Part shown: positions 4,466 to 13,447 of the stretch, one piece after another
Layout of the letters: every line of letters begins with the position of its first letter
Numbering within the stretch: the first letter of the stretch is position 1
Assembly (NCBI GenBank): GCA_021129445.1
Contig: JAJOLG010000074.1
Coordinates: 1-16,005, forward strand
Reading direction: 5' to 3'
Length of the DNA stretch: 16,005 nt
Source of the DNA: Candidatus Altimarinota bacterium
GTDB lineage: Bacteria; Patescibacteriota; Gracilibacteria; GCA-2401425; JAJOLG01
Notes under the pieces: generated by a model
Told to the model about the DNA's origin: nothing
The model's input: the letters and a program-made list of their open reading frames with translations, nothing else
Databases searched by the model: none
Program-made: the position numbers and the translations under genes

Positions 4466-4494
4466 GTTATTCTGAGCAAAGTGAAGAATTTTCT
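4466..4494. repeat. Dispersed repeat copy C (GTTATTCTGAGCAAAGTGAA-type)
   Basis: A 29-base stretch with far more G+C than its surroundings. It matches copy A at 12503-12533 (there in reverse orientation) at most positions and shares the CTGAG...AAGCGAAG core with copy B at 12544-12580. It occupies most of the 66-base convergent gap between metG and holB and reaches into the holB stop codon. Confidence 0.6.
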
Positions 4495-7472: not shown

Positions 7473-9869
7473 TTATATTTTTTCTCTCAAAATATGCTTA
7501 ATTTTTATCACTTCATTGTGTTCGTCGATAATGTAATAATAATGAATTAAATCTTCAAGTGCTTGAACTGACATATTTTCAATAAGATCGGTTTTTTCTT
7601 TTTTTATAATTTCTTTAATTTTCTTAATTACTTCGTGCTTTACAATGTTATTTATGTGCTTTTGGATATGTTCTGGAACTTTTTGCATCATTTTTTTGGT
7701 TTTTAAAGCATGCTCTCTGTTTTCATGTAGTAAATATTCTATGATATGATGCGAAATTCATATTTCTCATAATTTTAAAATCGCAATAATTGCCATTTCT
7801 CTTATTTCTTCATTGTCATCGTCCAAGAAATTATACAATTTTGATATTTCTTGCTTTGAATTTATCTCTCATAAAATAAAAATTGCAGCAAGTATATCAT
7901 CTTTATTTTTTGATAAAAGTAGTTTTGAAATTTGAATTGTTAATTGCAATCTTAATTGTTCAAACTGCCATAAAGCTATTATTACAGAGGCTTTTACTTG
8001 TGGATTTTTAGTATTTAAAAATTTTTTAATATAATGATTTAAATTTATATCTTCAAAATTTTTACAAACATAAATAATATTTTTTTTCGTATCGTCATCA
8101 GTATTTTCTAAAATATTAACAATAAAGGAGATAATTTCTTGATCGTGAATATTTGCAAAATTTTTGATTATTAGCTCTTTTACTGATTTTGATTGTGTAT
8201 CTTTTAGTAATTTTTTTAATTCATTTAAAATTCTGTGTTTTGTGAATCATTCTTGAAAAAGATTTTTTCCCGTGATTTTAAAATTTAAAAGTGCATTTAA
8301 TGCGGCTTTTGTGATATTTTTATCTTCATGTTTTGTTAAATTTAAAATTTCAGGAATTGATTCTTTGTGTCAAATTTCCCCCAAAGAATATAAAATTTTT
8401 CATTTTATTTCTTCTAAATTTCTTTTTTTTAATAATTTTGATAAAATCAAATGTGCATTTTTGTGTCATTTTTGTGTTAAAACTTCAATTGCTTCAAGTT
8501 TTTCTTGAATATCTTTGCTGGTTTCAGCTTTTTTTCTTGCTAGTTGTGTGTATTTATCTTTTGTTTTTTTAGTTAAAAAATACATGAGAATAAATAAAAT
8601 TATGATAATTGTAGAAATTGTTGTGTGTAAAATTTCTCAGTGAAGAAAAAATCATAAAAATAAAAGAATTATTGTTCAAGTCACTGTTCAAAGCGGGATA
8701 ACTATTCATTCATTAAATTCTTTTCAATATTCTTTCATTCTTTCATTTGCTGCATAAAATAAGGTAAGATATGCAGTTCTATGAAGTCAGTTTAAGATTT
8801 CAAAACTGGCTTTTGTAAAAACTGCTGTTTTTATTCAAAATGATGATAAAAGCGCAAAACTTGGGATAATCATCAGAAATGGATTAAGGGACATTGTTTT
8901 TATCAATCAAAATTTTCTGTTTAATCTTGATGAAATAAAAATTTGGCTTAAAAATAATAAAATTGAGAAAATTACATGATAAAATCATAATCAATGTGCA
9001 AGTTTTGAAGAATAAGATTCTTTATCATATGATTTTTGTTCTCAGTACATTTCTATTGAGTTGTGGATATCTTGATCAAGTGCAGAAGTGTATTGAAATT
9101 CAATAAGTGTAAAAATTATAAATTGTAAAAATACAATTATTGAGATGTATTTAAAAAATTTTGTACCTTTAATTTGTTTAAATCATTGATGAATTTTTTC
9201 TAATTTTGATTCTTTTTTTACATCGTTTTTTTTATGTTTTAATCTTGGTGTTTTATCGAGTAAAATTGAAACCGAGATTGCAAACATAAATATTATGAAC
9301 AAAAATATCAATATTTTAAAAAATGTTGTAATATCGATTTGTGTCGCTCAAATTGCCAAAAGTGATCATGCCAAAATTCATCAAATCGGCTCTGAGGCTA
9401 CAATAAATGGAATTGTTCTTTCACTTTCAAGTGGAGAAAAGAGTTCTTCAACGAAAATTCAAAGAATTATTTTTATTTGATATAAAACCACTGAAACAAA
9501 AAATATTATCGATCAGAAAAATAAAAGCGATCTTTCTTCCGAGATTCCCGTGATTGAAATTATCAAAATTGATAAAACTGAAAGCCAAATTAAAATTCTT
9601 CTCTTGTCTTTTGATTCAATTAAAAAAGAGAATCAAATTGATCAAATAATTGTTGAAATTGCGAGAATGATGTACAAAACTGGTAAATGTAAAATTCAAT
9701 AATATTCCAAAAATGATGCAGTTAAAAGTGTGCTTGCAATTACATAAATTCAAAAAATTATTGTTTTTACAAAAAAAGAAAATAGAACTCTTCACCATTC
9801 AAAAGTTGAAATATTAAAGATTTTGTTGATTGTGTGTAAAATATTTTGTGTTAAAAGTATTTTTTTCAT
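7473..9869 (-). CDS. Multi-pass membrane transporter-like protein with C-terminal HEAT repeats, 798 aa
   Basis: Not assignable to a substrate. Residues about 20-430 are a membrane domain with roughly ten to twelve hydrophobic spans (e.g. VKTIIFGIYVIAS, LYIILAISTIIGSIGFSFL, ILIFLFIIFMFAISVSIL, HVIFSILLFLSQIFI, GTVTGTIILLFLGFFL). The charged segment ANERMKEYGKEFNEG before the last spans resembles the conserved R-x-K-x-K-D/G region of ATP/ADP-translocase-like (NTT) and related MFS-type carriers. After about residue 440 the chain becomes soluble and is built from paired-helix repeats of 30-35 residues (for example ILYSLGEIGHKESIPEILNL, and NEEIREMAIIAILKLGEIGI), typical of HEAT repeats. ATG 9869 is the only plausible start; stop codons bound it just upstream. 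No TTA or CTA interrupts the frame on the plus strand. NTT-HEAT and MFS-HEAT fusions are known in other bacteria; the assignment to either is inference. Confidence 0.85.
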
Positions 9870-11087: not shown

Positions 11088-12491
11088 ATGATAAATTTAA
11101 AATTAAAAAAAGAGTTAAAACCAGAAAAGATTGAAAAAATTGATTGAACAAGGGATGTTTTACCTGTTGATCAAGAGCTTTATGATTTATTTAAAAGGGT
11201 TGCTTGACAAAGAGCAAGGCAGTCATGATTTTCAAAATTTTCAACTCCGATTATTGAAAAAGCTGAACTTTTTGAAAGGTGATTGTGAAAATCTACTGAT
11301 GTTTTAACAAAAAATCAGTTGTTTACTTTTGAAGATAGAAATTGAGAAAAATTGGCTTTGAGATCAGAATTGACTTTGTGAATGTGTAGATCTTACATTG
11401 AAAATATGCTTTCGCAAGAACCTCAACCTTTAATGTTTTATTCATTTGACAAGGTGTTTAGAAATGTTGAGTGAGAAAATAAAATTAGAGAATTTAATCA
11501 ATTTTGAATGGAGGTTTTTTGAGAAGTTGATGCCTGAATCGATGCACAATTGATTTATTTGTGAATGCAGATTTTAACTGATTTAAAAGTTGCAGAATGA
11601 GCAAAAGTTTTAATAAATTCTGTTTGAAGTCATAAAACTAGAAAAAAATTTTATAGATTTGCAACCGATTATTTTGAGTGAAAAAGAAAGGTTTTATGTT
11701 CAGATTGTCAGGAAAAAATTGAATTAACACCTTGGAGGATTTTTGATTGTCAAGAGGAAGATTGTCAAATTATTTGTTTAAAATCACCTAAAATAAAGGA
11801 TTTTTGGATGGGTGATGACAAAAAATTTCACGAGGAAATTTTAGAATTACTTGATGTTATTGATATTTCTTATGAAGTTGATGAAAAATTGACAACTTCA
11901 AATGATTATTACAACAGAACTATTTTTAAAATAGTTGATGCAGAGTGAAAAACAATGCTTGAAGGTTGAAGATATGATTTATTAACAACTCATTTATGAT
12001 GAGAAGAGATTCCGGCATCATGATTTTCGATAAATGCTGAAAATGTGATTGATAAAATGAAAAAAATCTGAGTGAAAACTCCAATTAAAAATAAAATTGA
12101 TGTTTTTGTTTGACAACTTTGAAAAGTTGCTAAAATAAAGGTTTTTCCATTGATTGAAAAATTACAAGCTCTTTGAGTTAGAACAATGTGATGAGTTTGA
12201 CAACCATCAATTAAATGACAAATGGCAATGGCTGAAAAGTCAAATGCAAAATTTGCTTTAATTATGGGAACTTTGGAGGTTAGAGATAATGTGGTGATTT
12301 TGAGAGATATGAAAAAATGAGTGCAAGAGCAAATTCCATTTGATGATGCAATTGATATTGTTATTGAAAAACTTTGAAAAGAAAATCTTGATAATAATAA
12401 ATTTATTGATGAGATTTACATTGAGGAGCCGAAAGAGGAGACTGATGAGGAGAAATTTAGGAAGAAGAGGAGGAGTAGGTTTAATTGATAA
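11088..12491 (+). CDS. hisS: Histidyl-tRNA synthetase
   Basis: Class II synthetase charging tRNA-His. The 467-residue product has the entry motif DGTRDVLP (19-26), motif 1 region with TPIIEKAELFERG, LRSELTLGMCR (91-101), motif 2 YSFDKVFRNVEGENKIREFNQ around 118-138, the histidine-specific LEGGRYDLL (291-299), an insertion with CSDCQEKIELTPWRIFDC typical of bacterial HisRS, and a C-terminal anticodon-binding domain (about 335-430). In motif 3 the block reads GFSINAENV (312-320), where family members normally have an Arg after the Glu (GFAIGLERL); here it is Asn319. The last 27 residues form an acidic then basic tail (EEPKEETDEEKFRKKRRSRF). The gene ends TGA TAA, giving a terminal Gly under code 25. 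No interruption. Confidence 0.94.
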
Positions 12492-12502
12492 AATTTAAAT
12501 TA

Positions 12503-12533
12503 AGAAATTTTTTGCTTTGCTTAGAATGACAAC
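12503..12533 (-). repeat. Dispersed repeat copy A (reverse orientation)
   Basis: The reverse complement reads GTTGTCATTCTAAGCAAAGC, followed by AAAAAATTTCT, and aligns with copy C at 4466-4494 (GTTATTCTGAGCAAAGTGAA) at most positions. It lies 12 bases after the hisS stop. Confidence 0.6.
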
Positions 12534-12543
12534 ATAAAAAAAG

Positions 12544-12580
12544 ATTATCCTGAGGGAAGCGAAGCGACGAAGGATCTTTA
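12544..12580 (+). repeat. Dispersed repeat copy B (G+C-rich)
   Basis: TTATCCTGAGGGAAGCGAAG followed by CGACGAAGGATC is one of the few G+C-rich stretches in the window. It belongs to the CTGAGCGAAGCGAAG-type dispersed repeat familiar from many bacterial genomes and stands inverted with respect to copy A, ten bases away. The inverted pair could fold, but copies A and B are only partly complementary. Confidence 0.6.
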
Positions 12581-12595
12581 TAGCGATAAAACAAC

Positions 12596-12634
12596 TTAAA
12601 AAGCATCAAAAAAATTTTTTTTGATGCTTTTTAA
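12596..12634. terminator. Strong bidirectional intrinsic terminator
   Basis: TTAAAAAGCATCAAAA and TTTTGATGCTTTTTAA form a perfect inverted repeat centred near 12615 with T runs on both strands. It follows hisS on the plus strand. The stem core GCATC/GATGC is the only G+C part. Confidence 0.8.
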
Positions 12635-12701
12635 AATATTTAATTTTTGTTTCTATTTTTTATAAAAAACTGAAATACCGTAATTGAAGATTCTTTTTTT
12701 T

Positions 12702-12766
12702 CACACAAAAGTGTAAGGTGGGTGGTCTATATCAAATACCCACGGGTAAAAGAAAATCTAGCCCCC
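12702..12766 (+). ncRNA. Candidate structured RNA or mobile-element remnant (unidentified)
   Basis: About 43% G+C over 65 bases in a region otherwise near 15-20%. Three hairpins can be drawn on the plus strand: ACAC-AAAA-GTGT (12703-12714); GTGGGT/ACCCAC (12718-12723 with 12738-12743) around a 14-base loop; and GGGT/GCCC (12744-12747 with 12761-12764). The run of T before the first hairpin and absence of one after the last mean it is not a plus-strand terminator. It matches no riboswitch, 6S, SRP, tmRNA or RNase P RNA core I can recall. The GTGGGT and GCCCCC elements also recall terminal hairpins of IS200/IS605 elements, so a decayed end is an alternative. Strand is a guess. Confidence 0.35.
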
Positions 12767-12779
12767 ATAAAATTATGAA

Positions 12780-12949
12780 AGAGAAAAAAAATTTTTATCA
12801 AGATAAGCAAATATTTCAGTATTTTTAATTTTCTATATAAAAAATTTATACAATAAAATATTTTAGTCAAATGTTTTTTTAATAAAAAAAAATTTTACAT
12901 CATTAAAAAAAATTTTTTAATATAAAAAATATAAAATAATAAAAAAAAT
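12780..12949 (+). other. A+T-rich leader upstream of the YtxH-like gene
   Basis: About 170 bases with almost no G or C. A TATACAAT at 12847-12854 could be a -10 element, with only a poor -35 (TTAATT, 12825-12830). A palindrome ATTAAAAAAAATTTTTTAAT at 12902-12921 lies close to the start codon. Nothing else is visible. Confidence 0.35.
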
Positions 12950-13447
12950 ATGAGTTTATTTAAAATACTTTTTGGGGCTACAACTTGACTGGCAGTATGA
13001 TTACTTTTTGCGAAAAAATCTGGAAATGAATTAAGAAATGATTTGAAATGAAAAACTTCTGAGGAAAAGGCGAAAATTTTGTGAAATGAAATTTTGAAAA
13101 CTTGAAAAGATTTGCTTGAAGAATTGAAAAAAATACCAGAAAATGAACAAATTGAAAAAATTAAAATTTTGTGAAAAGAAAAGATTGAGATTTTAAAAGA
13201 TGAAATAAAAAAACAAGGTTGAGAAAAAATTTCTGATTTTAAAGATTTTTGAAAAGAAAAACTTGACGAACTTTTACCAAAATTGGAAAATACTTTGGAT
13301 GAAATTAAAAAAAATTGATGAGAAATTGCAAAAGAAAAAATTTCTGATGCGAAAAAATTTTCTTGAAAAAAAATCAAGGAAGTAAAAAAAATTTTTAAAA
13401 AAGAAGAAAGTGTTTGAGCGAAAATGACAAAAATTTTTAAGAAATAA
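12950..13447 (+). CDS. YtxH-like protein, 165 aa
   Basis: The N-terminus MSLFKILFGATTGLAVGLLFAKKSGNELRNDL matches the YtxH/GvpP-type pattern: a short Gly-rich hydrophobic helix (about 7-21) followed by the A-x-x-SG-x-E-LR signature. The rest (25-165) is a long, highly charged Lys/Glu amphipathic helix or coiled coil with repeated GKE/KEK units, e.g. LGNEILKTGKDLLEEL, GKEKIEILKDEIKKQG, GKEKLDELLPKLENTL. The family is associated with the cell envelope and general stress, with no known enzymatic role. All but two glycines are TGA, so under the standard code the gene is invisible and a longer antisense frame appears instead. It is followed eight bases later by pyrG, probably in one transcript. 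Confidence 0.82.

Follow-up and report, generated by a model that had tools for sequence, protein, structure and literature searches.

Descriptions of 6S RNA present it as almost universal among bacteria, and competition between σ factors is one rationale for it in model species. By mimicking an open promoter, the RNA occupies the RNA polymerase holoenzyme, which escapes by copying the 5′ bubble of the RNA into a short pRNA (PMC8876501, PMC11077062). Typical members of the family (6S RNA/SsrS; RF00013) measure ~180–200 nt, and that of the hyperthermophile Aquifex aeolicus, at ~160 nt, is among the shortest known (PMC11077062). The free 6S-1 RNA of Bacillus subtilis has a small hairpin on the 3′ side of its central bubble (PMC8876501), and its gene has aspS and yrvM as neighbours (PMC11077062). 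Another RNA of the polymerase-binding type, actinobacterial Ms1, also has a central bubble, but it is ~300 nt long, binds the core enzyme and carries extra hairpins at both ends (PMC9130861).

Here we analyzed a 16,005-nt stretch of DNA from Candidatus Altimarinota bacterium (hereafter, the window), in which a G+C-rich island at 12702–12766 had been singled out. The island is real, but it is only the middle part of a 163-nt element on the minus strand (12825–12663), which is very probably the organism's single 6S RNA gene (ssrS). The element is part of a conserved family of rod-shaped RNAs found through the 6S model, and it occurs once in the genome. Like RF00013 RNAs, the window RNA forms a rod with a terminal stem, a central bubble and an apical arm, matches model positions 1–187 and carries the CACCCACCU motif, and its relatives have a promoter of their own. 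Unlike typical members, it is shorter, contains 28% G+C, has a P2 helix in which nearly all pairs are A-U, and reaches 26.4 bits where the cut-off is 46.4. It resembles B. subtilis 6S-1 in a predicted small hairpin on the 3′ side of the central bubble, and A. aeolicus 6S RNA in its length, both likenesses being drawn from overall features rather than base by base; its gene neighbours differ from those of 6S-1, and its source, unlike A. aeolicus, is not a hyperthermophile. By analogy, it may also share with Ms1 the property of binding RNA polymerase.

The G+C-rich island lies within a longer folded element

The island is located between hisS, which ends at 12491, and ytxH–pyrG, which begins at 12950; as the original prediction had stated, 184 bases separate the island from the start of ytxH. 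Reading TGA as glycine is required for the genes of the source genome to be open. G+C content reaches 44.6% in the island, compared with 25.8% in the window and 20.3% in the intergenic region (12492–12949). This value is the maximum among the 1,094 fully intergenic 65-mers of the window, but 0.8% of all window 65-mers attain it when genic ones are counted. When folded alone, positions 12695–12780 were mildly better than shuffled sequences (z = −1.7 for the plus strand and −2.4 for the minus strand), whereas the wider 12655–12835 region was clearly better on both strands (z = −3.3 and −3.4), because a long outer stem, formed by ACTGAAATA from 12669 and TATTTCAGT near 12819, encloses the island. 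The feature thus exceeds the predicted coordinates and extends from 12663 to 12825.

Model searches point to 6S RNA

An Rfam search, proposed as a check of the original prediction, called no family at the element at the gathering cut-offs. In a permissive search, RF00013 matched minus-strand positions 12825–12663 over its full length with 26.4 bits (E = 0.0016 on 461 bases), below its gathering cut-off of 46.4 bits, which is a threshold for automatic annotation and not a property of the molecule; a search of the whole source genome with RF00013 returned nothing. Other near-matches, such as SpF19 at 12561–12655, were also below cut-off and rested on the A/T-rich terminator hairpin. When RF00013 was applied to 192 genomes of the same class, 13 genomes had a match above the cut-off that the window fails to reach and 59 had one at E ≤ 1, nearly all of these matches being full length and ~155 nt long.

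We then used a covariance model (R1) made from 28 of the same-class relatives found with RF00013, with the window left out. On the source genome, R1 returned exactly 12663–12825 on the minus strand (51.4 bits; genome-wide E = 1.5e-11), and this was the sole match at E ≤ 10 in 673 kb, so that the rest of this A+T-rich genome acts as a negative control. Homology of the element to accepted 6S RNAs is thus established with a model that did not contain it. A model trained on the relatives plus the window (R2) gave 71.0 bits for the minus strand and 5.5 bits for the plus strand at the element, values obtained with the window in the training set. Plain DNA similarity to the relatives produced A+T-rich noise only, and a PyrG scan of genome contigs picked up nothing but distant bacteria whose PyrG genes are low in G+C, without usable synteny.

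The features of the element and its flanks are as follows.

12825 to 12663, minus strand: predicted 6S RNA (ssrS) gene, 163 nt (R1, 51.4 bits; RF00013, 26.4; R2, 71.0)
12808–12820, minus strand: terminal (closing) stem, 5′ strand, pairing with 12669–12680
12669–12680, minus strand: terminal stem, 3′ strand, CGGUAUUUCAGU (covariation and window fold)
12767–12791, minus strand: central bubble, 5′ side, rich in pyrimidines, together with the 5′ strand of P2 (UUUCUC-type block conserved in relatives)
12783–12791 with 12694–12702, minus strand: downstream helix P2, mostly A-U (pairing from predicted folds)
12764–12766, minus strand: GGG at the base of the apical arm, pairing with CCC at 12720–12722 (helix 2; G-C pairs in the window)
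12737–12748, minus strand: apical hairpin UACC-CGUG-GGUA (helix 4)
12717–12723, minus strand: ACCCACC motif, base of the apical arm (3′ side), hardly varying across the family and fitting CACCCACCU of the Rfam 6S consensus
12703–12714, minus strand: small ACAC/GUGU hairpin, 3′ side of the central bubble (predicted folds and family alignment)
12843–12870, minus strand: candidate promoter TTGACT – 16 nt – TAAATT (consensus match only, 9/12)
12595–12635, minus strand, terminator-like on both strands: terminator-like hairpin downstream of the RNA, 19 pairs plus a T-rich tail
12703–12706/12711–12714, 12718–12723/12738–12743 and 12744–12747/12761–12764: stems ACAC/GTGT, GTGGGT/ACCCAC and GGGT/GCCC of the original prediction, seen in the sequence

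The 6S structure covaries, unlike the stems of the original prediction

Over 43 homologues, the 32-pair structure was paired in 89.5% of cells, compared with 70.4% after shuffling, and its covariation score was 0.604, compared with 0.230 for shuffled and 0.136–0.158 for slid structures and matched in none of 500 shuffles; because the 43-sequence alignment was fitted to the 27-pair structure of R1, these counts lean somewhat towards the structure. In a MAFFT alignment that preceded the model, double changes were already present in 20 of the 27 pairs. The terminal stem (helix 1) was paired in 89.9% of cells, with 12 of its 15 pairs forming in the window; helix 2 was paired in 81.4% and helix 4 in 92.8%, each of the nine helix 4 pairs being changed at both positions in some relative. 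In the window itself, 24 of the 32 family pairs form, five of them differing from the commonest pair at both positions, and the inner apical arm is weak, with three U-U cells. The 6S architecture of terminal stem, central bubble and apical arm is thus backed by covariation. Where the window has its ACAC/GUGU hairpin in the 3′ bubble, a CCU/AGG hairpin occurs in the family, with the register slightly shifted.

Energy prediction for the window sequence by itself gave an optimum (−36.5 kcal/mol) other than the family fold, which is 4 kcal/mol weaker when enforced (−32.5 kcal/mol). The three stems of the original prediction occur in this optimum and are present as described, but they do not form a conserved structure, since they pair in 57.0% of cells in the 43 homologues and in 55.9% after shuffling. 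The covariation analysis over homologues that had been suggested therefore favors the 6S structure and not these stems.

Separately, we observed that the apical loop GUGG (12740–12743) is complementary to the nearly invariant CCAC (12718–12721, minus strand) in most homologues. Considered as an alternative fold, this pairing lacked compensatory changes, and 14 of the 43 sequences break one of the pairs; it could conceivably still be used at release.

Relatives carry a promoter of their own upstream of the RNA

A −10 box occupied a fixed slot just upstream of the RNA in 47 of 58 relatives (15.1 in shuffled sequences), and a σ70-type −35 and −10 pair was found upstream at a fixed distance in 38 of them (4.9 in shuffled sequences). 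The same counts for the opposite strand at the RNA's other end were 7 and 3 of 58. The relatives' RNAs thus have their own promoter, on the same strand as that found in the window. The candidate promoter of the window (12870–12843) would start transcription ~10 nt before the first base of the model, and it is tentative because, in the relatives, the promoters lie ~10 nt closer to the RNA. Two terminator-like sites were found, compared with 0.1 expected in shuffled sequences. With its 163 nt, the promoters of its relatives and the terminator-like hairpin downstream, the element has the size (~150–200 nt) and the make-up of a stand-alone transcription unit of the 6S type, its own promoter being uncertain. 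Of the three possibilities raised in the original prediction, that of a stand-alone small RNA was the right one, the element being the 6S RNA gene proposed here.

Other explanations for the element

The original prediction had also considered a leader of the ytxH–pyrG operon. A 5′ leader or riboswitch on the plus strand would suit an element located 184 nt before ytxH, and folding is predicted for the plus strand too, but the RNA lies on the strand opposite to ytxH–pyrG, as the R2 scores of 71.0 (minus) and 5.5 bits (plus) indicate, and no Rfam family matched above cut-off. Moreover, hisS, ytxH and pyrG were not found beside the 6S genes of the relatives, so that the element has neither the strand of the operon nor the conserved upstream position expected of a leader, and we consider this explanation very improbable. 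More improbable still is a degraded end of an IS200/IS605-type element, the remaining suggestion. Short hairpins within a G+C-rich patch would fit such an end, whereas the element is present in a single copy in the genome, the window proteins scanned include no transposase (TnpA or TnpB), and a covarying RNA family matches the element from end to end.

A subtler alternative is that the RNA is 6S-like but binds the polymerase otherwise, as Ms1 does with the core enzyme lacking σ, or that it acts without pRNA synthesis. It is fold and sequence that support 6S RNA here, and binding mode and pRNA synthesis are not readable from sequence; in addition, the genome has a single σ70 region-2 match, so σ competition may not apply. 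Against this alternative, a length of 163 nt and a full-length match to the 6S model contrast with the ~300 nt of Ms1 and its extra terminal hairpins (PMC9130861), and the 5′ bubble block is conserved, as a template should be. We therefore regard it as unlikely and retain 6S RNA as the preferred identity of the element.

Proposed function

By analogy with described 6S RNAs, the RNA of the source organism would bind RNA polymerase containing the housekeeping σ factor as an open-promoter mimic, and would keep the enzyme inactive while nutrients, or a partner cell, are lacking. Once NTPs are available again, the polymerase would copy the 5′ bubble into a short pRNA, with a putative sequence of about AGAGAAAAAAAAUU (plus strand, 12780–12793), the start being a guess from the conserved CUC block. 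The pRNA would then open the weak P2 helix, upon which the 6S RNA would refold and the enzyme would be freed. The window RNA possesses a terminal stem, a pyrimidine-rich 5′ bubble, an A-U-dominated P2 that is easy to open, a 3′-bubble hairpin and an apical arm, and from this likeness we infer polymerase sequestration and pRNA-mediated release. The conservation of the pyrimidine-rich 5′ bubble is compatible with a role as pRNA template. One σ70 region-2 match was found in the genome (assembly ~95% complete), indicating that a σ70-family factor is present; because this match is single, the RNA may be a general store of idle polymerase and not a σ switch.

Distribution in the phylum

At E ≤ 0.01, R1 detected the RNA in 76 of 117 genomes (source genome included), nearly all with a single match. 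Of 286 genomes from the phylum, R2 singled out 113 as having candidates at E ≤ 0.001, and all but one of these had one match each; the 113 is an estimate because R2 E-values are rough and some distant matches cover the apical arm only. By comparison, the Rfam 6S model found 6S RNA in 19 of the 286 genomes, above its cut-off in 3. No convincing match was obtained in the nearest relative genome examined (G001; same order, 96% complete), where the gene may have been lost, be missing from the assembly or be too divergent.

The window RNA is a new, divergent member of the known 6S family. Beyond this single gene, we find it rather probable that a divergent 6S subfamily, mostly invisible to the Rfam model, extends across the phylum (Patescibacteria/CPR). 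There it would restrain RNA polymerase globally, in very small cells that probably depend on a host and that in some cases have a single σ factor. In the literature searched, which lacked most subscription papers, 6S RNA was not reported for Patescibacteria, for Gracilibacteria or for the candidate phyla radiation; one paper contains a single passing mention of 6S RNA and a single one of Patescibacteria. Uncultured, streamlined bacteria thus gain a predicted global regulator of transcription together with a model for its annotation, and they offer a way to test whether promoter mimicry survives a reduction to one σ factor.

Additional observations

In a few relatives (L067, L085, L059, L065, L096 and L103), long open frames appear only when TGA is read through, whereas the other 52 look like users of the standard code. 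The class may therefore mix recoded and standard-code lineages, although some of these six loci are high in G+C, where long chance frames are possible. In the window, a second short G+C-richer patch is present at 12545–12585 (TCCTGAGGGAAGCGAAGCGACGAAGGATCTTTAT); we take it to resemble a TGAGCGAAGCGAAG-type intergenic repeat of many bacteria. The core of the patch occurs once in the genome at up to 1 mismatch, and a weak copy (2 mismatches) lies at 4473–4486. Finally, positions 7473–9869 of the minus strand encode a 798-aa protein whose N-terminal part looks multi-membrane-spanning and whose C-terminal part consists of HEAT repeats. Pfam recognized only the HEAT repeats, and the protein is possibly a transporter fused to them.
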